The notes below the pieces were generated by a model, which did no database searches, was not told the DNA's origin, and saw nothing but the letters and a program-made list of their open reading frames with translations. Below, in pieces: positions 43,201 through 64,000 of a DNA stretch of 64,000 bases (position 1 is the stretch's first letter; each line of letters opens with the position of its first letter). Origin of the DNA: Muricea muricata (taxonomy: Eukaryota > Cnidaria > Anthozoa > Malacalcyonacea > Plexauridae); assembly GCA_963855995.1 (NCBI GenBank), contig OY979719.1, forward strand, positions 4,030,001 to 4,094,000, given 5' to 3'. Made by a program: the position numbers and the translations under genes.

Positions 43201-43208
43201 TATCTTGT

Positions 43209-45050
43209 GGGTTAGGTGGAAAACGCGGACTGCGGACAGCACTGCGGACAGCGGACTGCGGACACGCAAATAAGACAATTTCTTACGTGTCCGCATTTTC
43301 CACTTTAGTGGAAAACGCGGACACCTTAGAAAATGCTCACAAAATGTGTATAAACGTCAGAATAAGAAAATTTCTTACGTGTCCGCATTTCCCACTTTAG
43401 TGGAAAACTCAGAATAAGAACTTTAAGTAAATCAGTCGCTTGACCAGGTCTAGCAGTAAAAAAATTGTAAATTTTTACAGCAACCGCGACGCTAAATTTG
43501 AATTAAAGACGATGGAGAGACAAACGAGGAGAAAGCGCGCGTTATATATACACCATGCAAGTAAATTAGTTTAAAACCTTTAACATAAGACTGACAAAGT
43601 AACTCCATTACATGTCAAATCTTATCTGCTAACACAGTCACAGTCTGTGACATTGCCGAATTCAAACAACTCAAATTGCATTTCGCGTTGGTGTTCTTAG
43701 CAATATGTTCATAAGCTTCCGTCTGTCTTTGGAAAACTACAGTATTTTTGTATGTGGCTTATTTATTTTCGTATATTTACTGTTCTAAATAATTAAGGTC
43801 AGGTTTAGTGGTTGGTGATTAGAAGACCTCTTATAAGAGATGTAGAATCGAATCATACCTTTGGAATCATACGGTCTACATTGACTACAATCATGTCGGG
43901 TATGTCAAAGAGCTTTAAATTCCCCGGTATTATAAAAGAGCGAAAAGCTGTTAGTCATGAATTACCCACCTTTGATTTGGGAAAAGTCACTAATCTACGC
44001 AAGCTTGGTCTTGGTAGTTTCGGTTCAGTCCATCTCGGGGACTATGTATGCGGCGTTGAAATCCAAAGTGTTGTTGTAAAGAAACTTAGAGGCGAATCCG
44101 AGGACGCTAAGCGTCGATTCGTTAAGGAAGCCAAGCTTTTGAACGGTATTAAGCACCCGAATATTCCGAGCTTTTTAGAATTTTTCGATGTACCTTACGC
44201 GTTAATGATGGAATATGTCGCATTCGACTTCGCGCCTTTTGGGCTTCAAAAGACTTTTTATAATTTGGAAGATTTCTATCATTTTGTTGACTGTGAGTTC
44301 GACTTTAAAATGTTTGATGATGTCATTACAATCTGTATGCGAGATATCGTGAAAGGCTTGGAGTTTCTGCATGGTATTGAAATTGCACACAGAGATCTGA
44401 AACCAAGCAATATTTCAGTGTCGAATCAACACTATGCACAAAAAGAAGAGTCGGCAGTTCAAAAGGAATACCAAGCTTGTCCTATCGTTTGTAAGGTTGT
44501 AGATTTTGGCTTAAAAATACTGTAGGTTTCCAAAGACAGACGAAAGCTTATGAACATCTTGCTAAGAACACCAACGCGAAATGCAATTTGAGTTGTTTGA
44601 ATTCGGCGATGTCAAAGACTGTGTTAGCGTTAATGATTTGACATGTAATGGTGTTACTTTGTCAGTCTTGTGTTAAGGTTTTAATGTAATATATAATGCG
44701 CGCTTTCTCCTTGTTTGTCTCACCAGCGTCTTTAATTCAAATTTAGCGTCGCGGTTGCTATAAAAATCTACAATTTTTTTACTGCTAGACCTGGTCAAGC
44801 GACTGATTTACTTAAAGTTCTTATTCTGACGTTTTTGTGCATTTTCTGAGCATTTTCTAAGGTGTCCGTGTTTTCCACTAAAGTGGAAAATGCGGACACG
44901 TAAAAAATTTTCTTATTCTGACGTTTTTACACATTTTGTGAGCATTTTCTAAGGTGTCCGCGTTTTCCACTAAAGTGGAAAATGCGGACAGGTAAGGAAT
45001 TGTCTTATTTGCGTGTCCGCCGTCCGCATGTCCGCGTTTTCCACCTAACC
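43209..45050. mobile_element. Long-TIR transposon-like element carrying a truncated protein kinase
   Basis: Two arms of about 540 bp (43209-43750 and 44513-45050) are inverted copies of each other with high identity. They start GGTTAGGTGGAAAACGCGGA and end with its inverse. Flanks are TATCTTGTG (43201-43209) and TATCTTGTA (45051-45059), an 8-of-9 duplication. Inside each arm are palindromic GTGTCCGCATTTTCCAC / GTGGAAAACGCGGACAC hairpins, two per arm. The roughly 760-bp centre holds a kinase ORF and no transposase. The structure resembles Mutator-like long-TIR elements (9-11 bp duplications) that capture gene fragments, or a fold-back element. The class is inference. Confidence 0.85.
43893..44525 (+). 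CDS. Truncated Ser/Thr-type protein kinase inside the long-TIR element
   Basis: From the first ATG the ORF is 210 codons. An in-frame open stretch continues upstream to about 43812. It has a canonical N-lobe: glycine loop GLGSFGSVHLG (residues 39-49), VVVKK with the catalytic Lys at about 63, and a helix-C Glu at about 79. The C-lobe start has HRDLKPSN (about 166-173) and DFG (about 204-206). It then stops, lacking the activation segment, APE motif and the rest of the C-lobe. The last codons (KIL-stop) are supplied by the right inverted arm, so the truncation matches the element boundary. All core catalytic residues are intact, but half the C-lobe is missing, so activity is doubtful; a pseudokinase-like or decoy role, or a non-functional captured fragment, are all possible. 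Confidence 0.7.
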   Translation: MSGMSKSFKFPGIIKERKAVSHELPTFDLGKVTNLRKLGLGSFGSVHLGDYVCGVEIQSVVVKKLRGESEDAKRRFVKEAKLLNGIKHPNIPSFLEFFDVPYALMMEYVAFDFAPFGLQKTFYNLEDFYHFVDCEFDFKMFDDVITICMRDIVKGLEFLHGIEIAHRDLKPSNISVSNQHYAQKEESAVQKEYQACPIVCKVVDFGLKIL

Positions 45051-45910
45051 TATCTTGTAAGTAAACATCTGAAGCTAAGAATAAATCGCAACATGATCAT
45101 GTTGTTATTGCTGATGAAAAATCGGCCAAAGTTCAAAGAACAACTGCGCGTATGAGGAACTGAGCTTGAAAGACAATACAAAAGATTGTTTTTCGTCCGT
45201 AGTAAGGCTGTAACAACAGATGTTGAAATTAAGGAAAATTGTTGACAAAGCAGTTTTAAAACACGCTTGACAAGTTTGAGTACTTTGCATAATCTCTGCA
45301 TTCTTATCTTTGCGCATGCGCAATCGTAATAGTATGATAGTATCCCCAAAATGGAAACATTTAATAGTCGCAAATTGGCAACCGAATTGGCTCAGAGTCA
45401 ATTCAGTTCTCTGCATTTCAACGTCTGCAATCACCTGGGATTATTTCAGTTCAATTCTTGAGCGATCAGCTTTATTTTAGTGGCTTTTATCAAGTCAATG
45501 GCCGAATAGAGAAGCCCCTATGACATTTTGTTACTTATGTATCATATCAAAATGCACTCATATGGTAAATTTGTTGTTGAACAAATAACTTACATCACAC
45601 TTATATTGTGAACACGAAACAAATGTTACGAATAAATCAATTTTAAAACTGGATGAATCCGCGTTAAATCTGGTTAAATCAACTGGTTAAATCAACGTTA
45701 ATTACTGTAATGCTAATTAGAGCAATCGGGGTAACGTGCAACAACTTCAGTTTATTATTTGATTAATGGCTAAAACTCTCTCAAGTTAAATCCGAAACGT
45801 AGACATCAATGTGCACAAGTACTTTTTTTATGAATCCTTGATTGACTTTGAATTTAATCGCATCACGTTGGCACGCAGCTTTAGTAAAGAAAAAATGTAT
45901 AATATACCGA

Positions 45911-46740
45911 CGCATTTGGCTAGTATGTAAATCAATGTTAAGGTATTTCATCACTGTGTTAAACTTTGCATCATCTTTAGTGTTACTATGACTTGCACAT
46001 TGCTGCCTTGCTGGTGATATCTTCTGATTCCCGTGCGATGGTGGTTGGGGATGGGTGATCAGTGACGGTGAAGCAATATCTATCACCCAACCCCAGCCAC
46101 CATCGCACGGGAATCAGAAGATATCACCAGCAAGGCAGCATGTGCAAGTCGTGGTAACAGTAAGGATGATGCATAGTTTAACACAGTGATGAAATACCTT
46201 AACATTGATTTACATACTAGCCAAATGCATATACATATCTATATGGAAAGCCATCGAGTATCTTCTGATTCCCGTGCGATGGTGGTTGGGGTTGGGTGAT
46301 CAGTGACAATGAAGCAATATCTATCACCCAACCCCAGCCACCATCGCATGGGAATCAGAAGATATCAACAGCAAGGCAGCAATGTGCAAGTCATAGTAAT
46401 ACTAAGGATGATGCAAAGTTTAACACAGTGATGAAATACCTTAACATTGATTTACATACTAGCCAAATGCATATACATATCTATATGGAAAGCCATCGAG
46501 TATCTTCTGATTCCCGCGCGATGGTGGTTGGGGTTGAGTGATCAGTGACAATGAAGCAATATCTATCACCCAACCCCAGCCACCATCGCATGGGAATCAG
46601 AAGATATCAACAGCAAGGCAGCAATGTGCAAGTCATAGTAACACTAAGGATGATGCAAAGTTTAACACAGTGATGAAATACCTTAACATTGATTTACATA
46701 CTAGCCAAATGCATGTACATATCTATATGGAAAGCCATCA
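45911..46740. repeat. Large palindrome followed by 242-bp tandem units with hairpin heads
   Basis: Each unit has a palindromic head (ATCTTCTGATTCCCGTGCGA ... inverse ... GGGAATCAGAAGATATC, about 105 bp) and a tail of about 135 bp ending CTAGCCAAATGCATATACAT. Heads start near 46018, 46259 and 46501. The tail of the first unit also occurs inverted at 45911-46015, making a 320-bp palindrome centred near 46067. Units are about 95% identical. The repeated open frames (QPQPPSHGNQKIS...) translate this array and are not taken as genes. It may be a satellite seed or a fold-back element. Confidence 0.85.
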
Positions 46741-52802: not shown

Positions 52803-55494
52803 TTAACCAATGCACCATATAATTACATACGCTGTCGACAGAAGAGCAAACGAGGACAGGATATGCCACAGGTCATGGTCGTCAAAAAACTCCCATAGAG
52901 AACACTCTGCGTTGAATTCACGCGACTTGCTCGCCACGTTAACTTTGTCCGTAACCGGCCTGTTCAGAAAGAAATGAAGTGCGATCAACCAACAAATAAC
53001 TGTACCAACAGCATACAGAATGACGTGCAAATTCACGATCGGCCATTGCAGGTACATCTTCCATATGAGTTCTCTCCTTTCATGTGCTGTCACGCCTTGT
53101 ATCCGTGTCACGTGTACGTATACACGCTGTGAGCATACTATTACACCATAGCCAACCACAGTACACATGACTGCCGCTAAGCACGTGAATAAGAAGAATG
53201 TAGACCAATCTTCCTGAAGGCTTACTGTGTACAACCCGATGAAAAGCATGACGACTGGAAACAACGCACATAGCCATCCGAACTTGCACCAGAATGCTGG
53301 CTCAGGGCGTGGCTTCCATGGCATCATGAGGCGACGGAATACCCAGGAAAACATGCACGTTATCCAAAAAATACTCGAAAAGTAAAATAATGCATCGGGA
53401 AGCAACAGGAATCCGTCTGTATCTCGAATTGAACCCATATAATTTAGCAGCAATAAAGGTATCACCACGAACAAGAATAACTTGACATCGTAAACTTGTT
53501 TCTTCCGTGAGCCTTCTTCCGTGCCCTGTTGACGCCTTGACTTGTCCACGTGGGCATTATAAGCAGCAACGAGAACGAGGGCACAAATAACGAACATGAA
53601 GGCTGAATCAAACTGGAACGTCATGCGGCTAGGGCAAACGTGATAAAATGAGGAGAAGATACCTTGGACCACCACGGACCATGCGAACGCGTACATAATT
53701 GAAAACGATTCTTTGCGCACGGCCACGTTTGAGCTACGCTCGTTCGCGCGACACGTGGCCTCTCTCAGCGAGATCGATAGCGCGAGAATGAGACCGTGTA
53801 TTATGTAGGTTAGGTTACTGGTGATCAGATTGAAGGGAATATCCATGCCAGGTGTTGTTCTGTAACATCCCTCGTTATAGTAGCATATGTCACGATTCCC
53901 ACTATCGATCATGTCCCGCCAGTTGGAAACTATAAACTGAATGGCGCCAGTAAGCAGGCTGAATGCAACAATGGCGGTAGTGTATGCATAGGATCGTTCA
54001 TCGCCGTGAAACCAATCAATCATTACACGTCCCCAATTTTTAAATCCTGGCCAATATTTTGGTATCCTAAGATTGGCAACGTCGTCATCGTAAGGTACTC
54101 CTGAATCTTGATCATGATGTAAACAGATACTACCGGTCGGTACTCTGTTTGGACCATTACTCGAAGACCTAGGACTGGCTTCATCCAGGTCTTCTTCTAC
54201 ATTGCCCATGTCTACATTGTCTATCTGAACATTGTCCATCTCCACTTTGTCTCTCTCCACATTGTCCATCTCCACTTTGTCTCTCTCTACATTGCCCATC
54301 TCTACATTGTCTGTCCTGCCCTTGCTTATCTTAAATTCACGCGAATGCACATACTTTCGTAGGTTGTGGATAAATTGGTGTTCGAATTCAGGATTGAGGA
54401 AGAAATCGGCAAACACAGCGATCACAACACCGCCTAAAACCGAAACTAGTATAAGAAGCGCCACTGGTGTAGCGAAATCACCTCTATTTATTACACCAGC
54501 GAAACCAACCGACACTTGGACAGTTTTTGTTACACTTTTTAAATCCTTGCTTTGATCTTCCTTTAAGAATACACCGATATACCAACGTCCCGTCGAGAGT
54601 TGTGGTTTAGATGCGCGGGTTAAGGTGATTCGTCCAAATGTAGTGAAGGTGAGATGAAGCGCGCTTCCAGCCGATTTCCTGACGTTCACAGCCCGAGGAT
54701 CCATGTTAACAACACTACTACAGTCATTTGAAACGTACAGTAAACACTCCTGGGTATCGTCATCAGAACGGACAGTCACTTGGAAATGGTCAAACTTTCC
54801 TTGTATCGTCGATACATCAAAGACAAGCAACCGTGAAGTGACCTTGTGTCCAAACTCCAGCGTTTTGATTTCGCTTTCACTCAGAATGGACTCGTCCACT
54901 TGGACTATGAGATTGATAGCTAGAAATCAAGAGAACAAGACGGATCAATAAGACAAGTCATCACTGCACTTATGATTCAATATAAATCACATATGAAACT
55001 ACAACCGTAACAAGACGAGATACTAGTCATATCGATTTACTACTACTAATTCTACCTGTAAGAGATGGGGCGGACAGAAATAAGGAATATTTGGAATAAT
55101 TTCGGCCGGTTGGCTCATCCAGAGATGGACAGATGTGGAATGGATATGTTACTTGCGGCTCCGCCTCCGTCACGTAACCCGATAACATTAAAACCCCATA
55201 TTCATTCATAACGATGATAATCAGCGATGATTTTGTTCGGTTGCTGGTTTGCTGTAACCCTAATCGAAGTATGCCTCTAAAGGAGTTGTACCATACATTG
55301 CAGTTTGTGTTGTTCAGCAGGGTGGGATTGGGACTCTTCGGGATCAAAATAGAGGCTCTCATCTCATTCCGTTGCGGAAAGGTGGGTTTAGCAAAGTTAC
55401 AAGTACCGTGGACTGAGACCTCCTGCATATCCGATGTCTGGGAAGCGGAAAGCCGACAAAGCACGAGGACAATGCAAACGACAGATACCTGCAT
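52803..55494 (-). CDS. SID-1 / SIDT family transmembrane protein
   Basis: SID-1 family proteins are multi-pass membrane proteins of the CREST superfamily linked to dsRNA and nucleic-acid or lipid transport. Two exons, 55494-55056 and 54919-52803, join in phase (ACA G|CT) to 851 aa. MQVSVVCIVLVLCRLSASQ is a signal peptide. A glycosylatable beta-rich ectodomain follows, ending at the first TM segment (TPVALLILVSVLGGVVIAVFA). A long cytosolic loop carries degenerate 10-residue repeats (VEMDNVERDK). Then come about ten TM helices. The CREST metal-site motifs are present: FYHVCPSRMTFQFDSAF, and near the end DDHDLWHILSSFALL. The protein ends soon after the last helix (YVIIWCIG), about 10-15 residues shorter than vertebrate SIDT, which could reflect an unseen last exon. 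SIDT1 versus SIDT2 is undetermined. Confidence 0.94.
54200..54325 (-). repeat. In-frame 30-bp coding minisatellite in SIDT
   Basis: The cytosolic loop repeats a 10-codon unit of the type DKVEMDNVER about four to five times. The DNA unit contains CCATCTCCACTTTGTCTCTC. The period is a multiple of three, so copy-number change would alter loop length without frameshift. A shorter array of the same unit occurs in the relic at 51607-51732. Confidence 0.85.
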
Positions 55495-59150: not shown

Positions 59151-61850
59151 TATACATACATAGATATCCTTAGTACTCCTTAGACTTTCTTAGCTATACT
59201 TATCTTTGTAATATTTGTAATCATTGTAATATCTGTTATCCCCGTAACCCTTGTAATCTTGGTTATCTTTGTAATCTTTGTAATCATTGTAATATCTCTT
59301 ATCTCTGTGATCTCCATAACTCTTGTAATCTTGGTTATCTTTGTTATCTTTGTAATCATTGTAATATATGTGATCTCTGTAATCCCTGTGACTCTGTAAT
59401 CTTTGTAATCATTGTAATATCTGTTATCTCCGTGATCCCCGTAACTCTTGTACTCTTGGTTATCTTTGTAATCATTGTAATATCTGTTATCTTTGTAATC
59501 ATTGTAATACCTGTGATCTCTGTGATTCCCGTAACTCTCGTAACCTTGGTTATCTTTGAAATCTTTGTATTCATTGTAATATTTGTTATTTCTGTTATCT
59601 CTGTGATTCCCGTAACTCTTGTAATCTTGGTTATCTTTGTAATCTTTGTAATCAATGTGATATCTGTTATCTTTGTAATCATTGTAATATCTGTTATCTA
59701 TGTGATCTCCGTAACTCTTGTAAGCTTGGTTATCTTTGAAATCTTTGTAATTATTGTAATATCTGTGATCCCTGTAATTCTTGTAATCTTGGTTATCTTT
59801 GTAATCTTTGTAATCATTGTAATATCTGTGATCTCTGTAATCCCTGTGACTCTGTAATCTTTGTAATCATTGTAATATCTGTTATCCTTGTGATTCACGT
59901 AACTCTTGTAATCTTGGTTATCTTTGTAATCTTTGTAATCATTGTAATATCTGTGATCTCTGTAATCCATGTGACTCTGTAATCTTTGTAATCATTGTAA
60001 TATATGTTATCTCTGTGATCCCCGTAACTCTTGTAATCTTGGTTATCTTTGTAATCTTTGTAATCATTGTAATAACTGTTATCTTTGTAATCATTGTAAT
60101 ATCTGTTATCTCTGTGATCCCCGTAACTCTTGTAATCTTGGTTATCATTGTAATCTTTGTAATCGTTGCAATATCTATGATCTCTGTAATCCCTGTGACT
60201 CTGTAATCTTTGTAATCATTGTAATATCTGTTATCCTTGTGATTTCCGTAACTCTTGTAATATTGGTTATCTTTGTAATCATTGTAATATCTGTGATCTC
60301 AGTAATCCATGTGACTCTGTAATCTTTGTAATCATTGTAATATATGTTATCTCTGTGATCCCCGTAACTCTTGTAATCTTGGTTATCTTTGTAATCTTTG
60401 TAACAACTGTTATCTTTGTAATCATTGTAATATCTGTTATCTCTGTGATACCCGTAACTCTTGTAATCTTGGTTATCTTTGTAATCTATGTAATCATTGT
60501 AATATCTGTGATCTCTGTAATCCCTGTGACTCTATAATCTTTGTAATCATTGTAATATCTGTTATCTCTGTGATCCCCGTAACTCTTGTAATCTTGGTTA
60601 TCTTTGTAATCTATGTAATCATTGTAATATCTGTGATTTCTGTAATCCCTGTGACTCTGTAATCTTTGTAATCATTGCAATATCTGTTATCTCTGTGATC
60701 CCCGTAACTCTTGTAATCTTGGTTATCTTTGTAATCTTTGTAATCGTTGCAATATCTATGATCTCTGTAATCCCTGTGACTCTGTAATCTTTGTAATCAT
60801 TGTAATATCTGTTATCCTTGTGATTCCCGTAACTCTTGTAATATTGGTTATCTTTGTAATCTTTGTAATCATTGTAATATCTGTGATCTCAGTAATCCAT
60901 GTGACTCTGTAATCTTTGTAATCATTGTAATATATGTTATCTCTGTGATTCCCGTAACTCTTGTAATCTTGGTTATCTTTGTAATCTTTGTAATCTTTGT
61001 AATATCTGTTATCTTTGTAATCATTGTAGTATCTGTTATCTCTGTGATCCCTGTAACTCTTGTAATCTTGGTTATCTTTGTAATCTATGTAATCATTGTA
61101 ATATCTGTGATCTCTGTAATCCCTGTGACTCTGTAATCTTTGTAATCATTGTAATATCTGTTATCTCTGTGATCCCCGTAACTCTTGTAATCTTGGTTAT
61201 CTTTGTAATCTTTGTAATCTTTGTAATATCTGTTATCTTTGTAATCATTGTAATATCTGTTATCTCTGTGATCCCTGTAACTCTTGTAATCTTGGTTATC
61301 TTTGTAATCTATGTAATCATTGTAATATCTGTGATCTCTGTAATCCCTGTGACTCTGTAATCTTTGTAATAATTGTAATATATGTTATCTCTGTGATCCC
61401 CGTAACTCTTGTAATCTTGGTTATCTTTGTAATCATTGTCATATCTGTTATCTTTGTAATCATTGTAATATCTGTTATCTCTGTAATCCCAGTAACTCTT
61501 GTAATCGTAGCTATTTTTGTAATCTTTGTAATCATTGTAATATCTGTTATCTTTGTAATCAATGTAATATTTGTTATCTCTGTGATCTCTGTGATCCCCG
61601 TAACTCTTGTAATCTTGGTTATTTTTGTAATCTTTGTAATCATTGTAATCATTGTAATATCTGTTATCTTTGTAATCATTGTAAAATTTGCTATCTGTGT
61701 AATCTCTGTAATCCCGGTAACTCTTGTAATCTTGGTTATCTTTGTTATCTTTGTAATAATGTAATATCAGTGATCTCTGTAATCCCTGCGACCCTGTAAT
61801 CTTTGTAATCATTATAATATCTGTTATCATTGTAATATCTGTTATCTACG
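59150..61850. repeat. Satellite A: TTGTAATCATTGTAATATCTGTTATC-type array with ~120/224-bp higher-order period
   Basis: The array is built of short words (TTTGTAATC, ATTGTAATATCTGT, CCGTAACTCTTGTAATCTTG). A marker, GACTCTGTAATC, recurs about every 114-125 bp or about 221-226 bp, which shows a higher-order repeat. It is AT-rich and strand-asymmetric. Long frames such as VIPVTLVILVIFVI are translations of the array. The left edge is gradual; the right edge at about 61850 abuts satellite B. Confidence 0.95.
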
Positions 61851-64000
61851 GTATAAGACAGGTAAAATAAGAAAGGTATAAGACACGTATAATAATAAGA
61901 CAGATATAAGACAGGTATAATAAGACAGGTATAATAAGACAGGTATAATAAGACAGGTATAAGACAGGTATAATAAGAATGGTATAAGACAGGTATAATA
62001 AGACAGGTATACGTATAAGACAGGTATAATAAGACAGGTATAAGACAGGTATAATAAGACAGGTATAATAAGACAGGTATAAGACAGGTATAATAAGACA
62101 GGTATAAGACAGGTATAATAAGACAGGCATAAGACAGGTATAATAAGACAGGTATAAGACAGGTGTAATAAGACAGGTGTAATAAGACAGGTGTAATAAG
62201 ACAGGTGTAATAAGACAGGCATAATAAGACAGGTATAAGACAGGCATAATAAGACAGGTATAAGAAAGGCATAAGAAGACAGGCATAATAAGACAGGTAT
62301 AAGACAGGTATAATAAGACAGGTATAAGACAGGTATAATAAGACAGGTATAAGACAGGTATAAAAAGACAGGTATAAGACAGGTATAATAAGACAGGTAT
62401 AAGACAGGCATAATAAGACAGGTATAAGACAGGTATAATAAGACAGGTATAAGACAGGTATAATATGACAGGTATAAGACAGGTATAATAAGACAGGTAT
62501 AAAACAGGTATAATAAGACAGGTATAAGACAGGTATAATAAACCAGGTATAAGACAGTTATAATAACACAGGTATAATAAGACAGGTATAAGACAGGTAT
62601 AATAAGACAGGCATAAGACAGGTATAATAAGACAGGTATAAGACAGGTGTAATAAGACAGGTGTAATAAGACAGGTGTAATAAGACAGGTGTAATAAGAC
62701 AGGCATAATAAGACAGGTATAAGACAGGCATAATAAGACAGGTATAAGAAAGGCATAAGAAGACAGGTATAAGACAGGCATAATAAGACAGGTATAAGAC
62801 AGGTATAATAAGACAGGTATAAGACAGGTATAATAAGACAGGTATCAGACAGGTACAATAAGACAGGTATAATAAGACAGGTATAAGACAGGTAATAAGA
62901 CAGGTATAAGACAGGCATAATAATACAGGTATAAGACAGGCATAATAAGACAGGTATAAGACAGGCATAATAATACAGGTATAAGACAGGCATAATAAGA
63001 CAGGTATAAGACAGGCATAATAATACAGGTATAAGACAGGCATAATAAGACAGGTATAAGACAGGTATAATAAGACAGGTATAAGACAGGTATAATAAGA
63101 CAGGTATCAGACAGGTACAATAAGACAGGTATAAGACAGGTATAATAAGACAGGTATAAGACAGGTAATAAGACAGGTATATGACAGGCATAATAATACA
63201 GGTATAAGACAGGCAAAATAAGACAGGTATAAGACAGGCATAATAATACAGGTATAAGACAGGCATAATAAGACAGGCATAATAAGACAGGTAAAAGACA
63301 GGCATAATAAGACAGGTATAAGACAGGCATAATAAGACAGGTATAAGAAAGGCATAAGAAGACAGGTATAAGACAGGCATAATAAGACAGGTATAAGACA
63401 GGTATAAGACAGGCATAATAAGACAGGTATAAGAAAGGCATAATAAGACAGGTATAAGACAGGTATAATAAGACAGGTATAAGACAGGCATAATAAGACA
63501 GGTATAAGACAGGCATAATAAGACAGGTATAATACAGGCATAATAAGACAGGTTTAAGACAGGCATAATAAGACACGTATAAGACAGGTATAATAAGACA
63601 GGTATAAGACAGGTATAATAAGACAGGTATAAGACAGGCATAATAAGACAGGTATAAGACAGGTATAATAAGACAAGTATAAGACAGGTATAATAAGAAC
63701 GGTATAAGACAGGTAAAATAAGAAAGGTATAAGACACGTATAATAATAAGACAGATATAAGACAGGTATAATAAGACAGGTATAATAAGACAGGTATAAT
63801 AAGACAGGTATAAGACAGGTATAATAAGAATGGTATAAGACAGGTATAATAAGACAGGTATACGTATAAGAAAGGTATAATAAGAATGGTATAAGACAGG
63901 TATAATAAGACAGGTATAATAAGACAGGTATAAGACAGGTATAATAAGACAGGCATAAGACAGGTATAATAAGACAGGTATAAGACAGGTGTAATAAGAC
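61850..64000. repeat. Satellite B: 25-bp AGACAGGTATAAGACAGGTATAATA-type array, running off the window
   Basis: Near-perfect alternation of an 11-bp (GACAGGTATAA) and a 14-bp (GACAGGTATAATAA) unit gives a 25-bp period. Variants include GGCATAAT and GGTGTAAT. Blocks of several hundred bp recur almost identically: 62160-62270 with 62640-62760, and 61860-62040 with 63710-63880. The minus strand has no stop codon in any frame, so large overlapping ORFs (up to about 700 codons) are artefacts. Confidence 0.97.

Follow-up and report, generated by a model that had tools for sequence, protein, structure and literature searches.

The genome of the cnidarian Muricea muricata contains, within the 64,000-nucleotide stretch analysed here (the window), a short element in which the 5′ part of a protein kinase gene lies between two long inverted arms. 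The locus raises the question of where this kinase piece came from, and whether it is selected or just carried. A first-pass annotation of the same DNA had compared it to the gene captures of Pack-MULEs, with a fold-back duplication around an old kinase exon as the alternative. The element is very probably a non-autonomous fold-back derivative of a MULE whose larger relatives carry a transposase together with a kinase gene of about 590 codons.

Architecture of the window element

The element and its parts were delimited as follows, in window coordinates:

43210-45050, whole element, 1841 bp (C4:4073210-4075050)
43201..43209, no strand, left target-site duplication (TSD) TATCTTGTG, 8 of 9 bases identical to 45051-45059
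43210..43749, plus strand, left arm, a terminal inverted repeat (TIR) with tip GGTTAGGTGGAAAACGCGGAC, from the inverted-repeat comparison; its interior has palindromic sub-repeats GTGTCCGC..GCGGACAC, followed by a left-specific subterminal part from arm position ~265 to 540
43750..43892, plus strand, unique leader between the left arm and the kinase ATG
43893..44512, plus strand, 5′ kinase segment spanning codons 1 to ~206 (to DFGL), Pfam Pkinase
44513..45050, minus strand, right arm, which repeats the left arm in inverted orientation and joins the kinase within codons 206-207
45051..45059, no strand, right target-site duplication TATCTTGTA, 8/9 match to the left copy

The inverted arms of about 540 bp described in the first pass were recovered at 43210-43749 and 44513-45050. 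Their tips form a perfect 21-bp inverted match, and they pair in ungapped inverted blocks of 163 bp (95%), 146 bp (95%), 120 bp (93%) and 66 bp (86%), or in larger gapped BLAST blocks at 88-96% identity. The arms make up 1078 of the 1841 bp and have internal palindromic repeats, an architecture of the foldback type. The near-perfect 9-bp target duplication was also found as described, its two copies having TATCTTGT in common and differing at a single base (G/A).

The kinase ORF runs from stop to stop at 43809-44525 on the plus strand, with an ATG at 43893, and includes GLGSFGSV, VVVKK, HRDLKPSN and DFG. Its last codons, K-I-L-stop after DFGL, are supplied by the right arm, in agreement with the earlier reading of conserved motifs and an arm-derived end. 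The Pfam run within the element was made on this ORF alone and matched Pkinase with an E value of 4.8e-18, covering just profile positions 3-144 of 263. The window kinase is without activation loop, C-lobe and C-terminal domain; full-length relatives reach ~590 aa. As the first pass had noted, no transposase was seen in the element: none of the ORFs of at least 60 aa in the 1841 bp looks like one.

The surroundings of the element were also inspected. A palindromic satellite lies 0.9 kb away (45912-46739), with a unit of ~242 bp and strong inverted repeats from 45912; three copies of the unit, at 96%, occupy 46018-46739. Degenerate minisatellite arrays cover nearly 5 kb up to the window edge (59202-64000). 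The window also contains a gene of the SID-1 family of dsRNA channels (52803-54926, minus strand, Pfam E 6.4e-45), which fits the animal host that the first pass had supposed.

The arm family and the kinase junction

The genome (453 Mb, 74 contigs) was searched with one arm, which gave at least 74 matches (40 of 89 candidates scored) at no fewer than 25 loci. This number of loci is a lower bound, since two further decayed family copies missed by the arm search were reached through the kinase. In the decayed window-family copies at L077:445-814 and L078:1-566, arm pieces adjoin kinase pieces. A sister set of 21 elements in 20 stretches, some of them partial, was assembled, with three of the 25 arm loci left out.

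Family arms measured ~265-540 bp, in keeping with the long TIRs of the MULE superfamily. At L015, L017, L019 and L020 the second end differs, and likeness to the left arm is limited there to arm positions ~1-265. Among the 14 complete elements, including that of the window, nine were flanked by perfect 9-bp duplications and two by duplications matching at 8/9; the others matched at 7/9, 6/9 and 4/9, one each. The 7/9 and 6/9 elements have common flanks and look like the result of a 1-bp indel. Two of the nine perfect cases occupy one site (L013, C14:9.01-9.02 Mb) and are a local duplication. Copies with common flanks, at L013 and at L041 and L042 (C1:95.3 and 95.9 Mb), stem from local or segmental duplication of DNA that bears the element. 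Since nine of the 14 complete elements carry perfect 9-bp duplications, the family is mobile, and the mobile long-TIR family that the first pass had proposed to look for with one arm is therefore real.

Kinase sequence was detected by tblastn (E 1e-3 or better) in 17 of the 21 sister elements, and at that threshold was absent from L018, L024, L026 and L028. An identical kinase cut and arm fusion was present in seven copies: the window element, L009, L010, L011, L012 and two in L013. The junction in L010 has one base change at the same position, and five junction sites (window, L009, L010, L011 and L013) have duplications of their own. We read the seven copies as products of a single fold-back that was later amplified. 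In L014, L016 and L022 the kinase continues beyond DFG, and in L022 it reaches deep into the C-terminal part. The window copy therefore descends from a longer kinase gene by truncation.

L014, a 6.9-kb copy with its right tip missing, has two other pieces between its family arms, both in the orientation of its kinase. One, at L014:3165-3467 (minus strand), is from a PP2C phosphatase (Pfam E 1.4e-20); the other, at L014:2182-2994 (minus strand), is from a PF20700 transposase. They were either captured or nested. PF20700 was set aside as the family transposase because its 35 matches resemble a separate TE family; the transposase fragment in L026 is of another type.

The kinase gene in larger elements

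The kinase protein was used for a genome search that ignores introns, a spliced host parent being beyond its reach. It gave at least 150 matches (150 of 314 candidates scored); in some cases several matches belong to a single copy. In six copies that were read, the kinase is an intron-free stop-to-stop frame of 592-635 codons. A short kinase piece at C1:9246819, the third of its kind, is a candidate host exon.

A complete element of 10.56 kb on C4 has tips GGCTATCTTTAAAACAGGGAAC, inverted minisatellite arms and a perfect 9-bp TSD, ACGGCGAAA. It carries a 590-codon kinase protein and, downstream, three transposase ORFs with a SWIM-like motif, for which Pfam gave no match. A transposase fragment in L026 adjoins an arm of the GGTTAGG family and matches PF10551 (MULE) at E 0.0014, below the cut-off; it is 50% identical to L068, a relative of 1035 codons that also matches PF10551 below the cut-off (E 0.024). 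Read by eye, L068 has motifs that we take to be DDE-like (D..D..CxxH..E) and SWIM-like (CxC..CxH). The search for an autonomous copy and a parent kinase, suggested in the first pass, was thus answered in part: a larger relative with both kinase and MULE-like transposase exists, and the genome yielded no full autonomous copy with the tips of the window's own family. The transposase of that family is known from the L026 fragment and a twin match at C1:22.1 Mb.

When the genome was searched with the C4 transposase ORF, at least 103 rows were obtained (102 of 296 candidates scored), corresponding to 99 loci after neighbours were merged. A kinase match was present within 13 kb of 40 of the 103 MULE-like transposase rows listed, and in 39 of these 40 the kinase lay upstream on the same strand, with a median gap of 5.1 kb and 37 distinct kinase matches. 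If placement were uniform, about 0.9 near pairs in any order would be expected, a rough figure because transposons cluster; order and strand provide an internal control. As 63 of the 103 transposase rows had no kinase match within 13 kb, and 113 of the 150 kinase matches listed did not pair with a linked transposase row, pairing is common but not universal. A single TIR/TSD unit was verified for the C4 pair alone. Many of these MULE-like elements, though not all, thus carry the kinase as a standing accessory gene.

These results bear on the proposal that the window element is a Pack-MULE, which captured a fragment of a host kinase and may express it. A truncated kinase between long TIRs, with 9-bp duplications and no transposase seen, is what such an element would look like, and Pack-TIRs exist in animals (370 across 100 genomes, according to the accessible text of PMC8277862). 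However, the kinase is resident in the larger relatives, where it precedes the transposase on one strand in 39 of the 40 nearby rows and is complete in the C4 element; its cut end extends into normal kinase in L014, L016 and L022; and two short kinase pieces (65-75%) regarded as host-exon candidates proved to adjoin family arms. It is therefore very unlikely that this element captured a host kinase. The likeness to Pack-MULEs remarked on in the first pass holds for a gene piece between TIRs without transposase, but not for its source, since the internal sequence derives from a gene that the related full elements own.

The constraint on the kinase was estimated in 11 longer frames (350-625 codons, six of them above 585 codons; 435 aligned columns), which gave an omega of 0.075, with lnL -10929.8 compared to -11514.7 at omega 1, an improvement of 585 units. 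Fold-back copies gave 0.80 (three clean copies) and 1.25 (seven copies, masked), neither different from 1, and 1.48 when unmasked, a value probably inflated by frameshifted copies. By pairwise NG86, comparisons among the three clean fold-back copies, which rest on 14-16 changes, gave ratios of 0.34-0.58, and four near-identical pairs drawn from the longer kinases gave 0.20-0.66, so that the measure of recent constraint is weak for either group. The GGCTATC fold-back copies L040, L043, L044 and L047 gave 0.90-1.69. As few changes separate the fold-back copies, weak constraint could still act on them. The dN/dS check did not bear out the earlier suggestion that the cargo is selected in this copy (0.80-1.25 in fold-backs compared to 0.075 in the longer frames), and the window kinase piece is most likely an unselected remnant. 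In the 11 frames checked for catalytic residues, the VxxK-type lysine and the HRD motif were present in 11/11, the MAPE pattern in 10/11 and the glycine-loop pattern in 8/11, and the L032 kinase was the sole case in which DFV replaces DFG.

The ~590-aa protein consists of the kinase domain and a conserved second domain. Seven sequences of the latter have N59, D60, C65 and D194-T-H196 in common, five of them being 40-44% identical to the first. Neither Pfam (best E 0.052) nor viral contigs gave a convincing relative, and the best match among PDB sequences, E 0.0018 over 58 aa, was judged to be due to chance (best 0.17 in another search). From its common residues, the second domain is a possible papain-like cysteine hydrolase.

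Kinase and transposase trees were compared for ten pairs. Nine were genome neighbours 3.0-5.3 kb apart, taken from the 37 linked kinases; in the tenth, that of the window family, the two genes come from different copies joined via the family arms. The transposase tree had three groups with support of 100/99 or better and long branches. A kinase clade formed by the window family, C4 and C1:93.6 Mb (98/97) has one member in each transposase group, and the kinases of C1:103.0 and C1:86.4 unite (99/95) across groups. A transposase tree constrained to unite the window family with C4 was rejected (p 3e-39). The idea that kinase phylogeny tracks transposase phylogeny was also set aside: a 7-pair Mantel test gave rho -0.1 (p 0.68), and an AU test rejected kinase monophyly for transposase group A, named beforehand (p 0.000125). 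Over 27 linked pairs (30 of the 37 had a kinase value, minus three near-identical ones) the identities were weakly positively correlated (rho 0.37, p 0.058), which indicates that exchange is partial, not total. The conflict points to a kinase gene that was partly exchanged between deep transposase lineages, with the long branches as a reason for caution.

Conflicting trees would also arise if the kinase were a host multigene family beside which the transposase often inserts, and the 113 of 150 kinase matches listed without a linked transposase partner could be read in the same way. However, such a family would hardly keep strand and order nearly fixed (39 of 40 rows), and both genes lie within one TIR/TSD unit on C4. 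Inspected window-family kinases were found between or beside family arms, and others in fold-backs with GGCTATC tips; the six intron-free frames of 592-635 codons likewise argue against a host family, which we consider extremely unlikely.

Origin of the fold-back and relation to known systems

The preferred reading, descent of the window element from a kinase-bearing MULE, suggests the following course. An ancestral copy would have lost all sequence 3′ of kinase codon ~206 (the rest of the kinase, the transposase and the right end) and received in its place the inverted left 540 bp, presumably by template switching. The product, with two good ends, could be moved in trans by the family transposase; the fold-back copies would now be decaying, with the kinase piece as a passenger. 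The fold-back architecture proposed as an alternative in the first pass is thus retained, but it was the left end of the element itself that folded. The kinase protein of full elements would most likely be an accessory factor aiding the element via the transposase, silencing or the state of the host cell, a role proposed because the kinase is kept over deep divergence and has apparently passed between transposase lineages.

Foldback elements (FB) have long inverted arms with internal sub-repeats; the window element has both, and two copies of one end. Mu killer of maize, which according to the available text of PMC3440606 duplicates part of mudrA in inverted orientation and holds one TIR region twice, is similar in its doubled end and its partial inverted duplication. 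The window copy differs from FB and Mu killer in retaining a unique kinase loop. By analogy with Mu killer, the fold-back kinase elements might act as hairpin-RNA silencers of full elements. Among the 150 matches listed, inverted kinase pairs within 2.5 kb were tail-to-tail at 12 loci and head-to-head at none, and the tail-to-tail arms, where inspected, reached ~1.3 kb with blocks at 96-99%. However, any fold-back with two left ends also yields a tail-to-tail duplication, and the arms of the window copy are without kinase, so that such a silencing role is unlikely. Flanks of the GGCTATC fold-backs L043-L047, L051 and L052, counted at four loci, fit a 10-bp rather than a 9-bp duplication.

More tentatively, the kinase and the putative papain-like cysteine hydrolase (invariant N59, C65 and D194-T-H196 in seven sequences) might together be an exchangeable fitness module of animal MULEs, crossing transposase lineages about one substitution per site apart and aiding elements by modifying the transposase or host silencing; the derived fold-backs may in turn feed hairpin-RNA silencing. 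A conserved MULE kinase suggests that phosphorylation matters to these transposons, and that genes are traded among transposons themselves besides with the host. Calls of gene capture need a check for transposon-resident genes, and a single-exon kinase in such a genome may belong to a transposon rather than to the host kinome.

The window family agrees with the MULE superfamily in its 9-bp TSD (8-11 bp being the superfamily range) and its long TIRs, and a relative has a transposase with putative DDE- and SWIM-like motifs, read by eye; the family differs in that the larger relatives carry a gene for a kinase with a second domain. Extra ORFs of MULEs include FAR1, SET, OTU and others (Table 1 of PMC6446971, as accessible). 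Rehavkus, compared by description only, has a minisatellite near the TIR and a 9-bp TSD according to the same accessible text, and GGCTATC relatives have minisatellite TIRs; Rehavkus has a PHD where L068, by eye, has a SWIM-like motif, and one ORF in that table compared to two genes here. Pack-MULEs and Pack-TIRs likewise have a gene piece between TIRs with no transposase seen, and presumably moved in trans, but here the source of the piece is a gene of the transposon itself and not one of the host.

In the accessible main text of PMC6446971, PMC13359780, PMC8277862 and PMC6431247 the word 'kinase' does not occur, and its single mention in that of PMC12220107 is unrelated. No MULE-resident kinase gene was found in the literature searched, Repbase and most subscription journals lying outside the search. 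Second genes of autonomous MULEs are known in mudrB and vanC (accessible text of PMC6446971), from which the present gene differs in encoding a kinase with a second conserved domain and in having apparently been swapped between transposase lineages. Accessory genes such as mudrB, vanC, SET and OTU were thus already known, and a kinase that persists in deeply diverged MULE-like lineages within one genome is not among them in the literature searched, so far as its text was accessible. The fold-back in the window is ordinary in itself; the finding is its source, a group of MULEs with a conserved and apparently exchangeable kinase gene.
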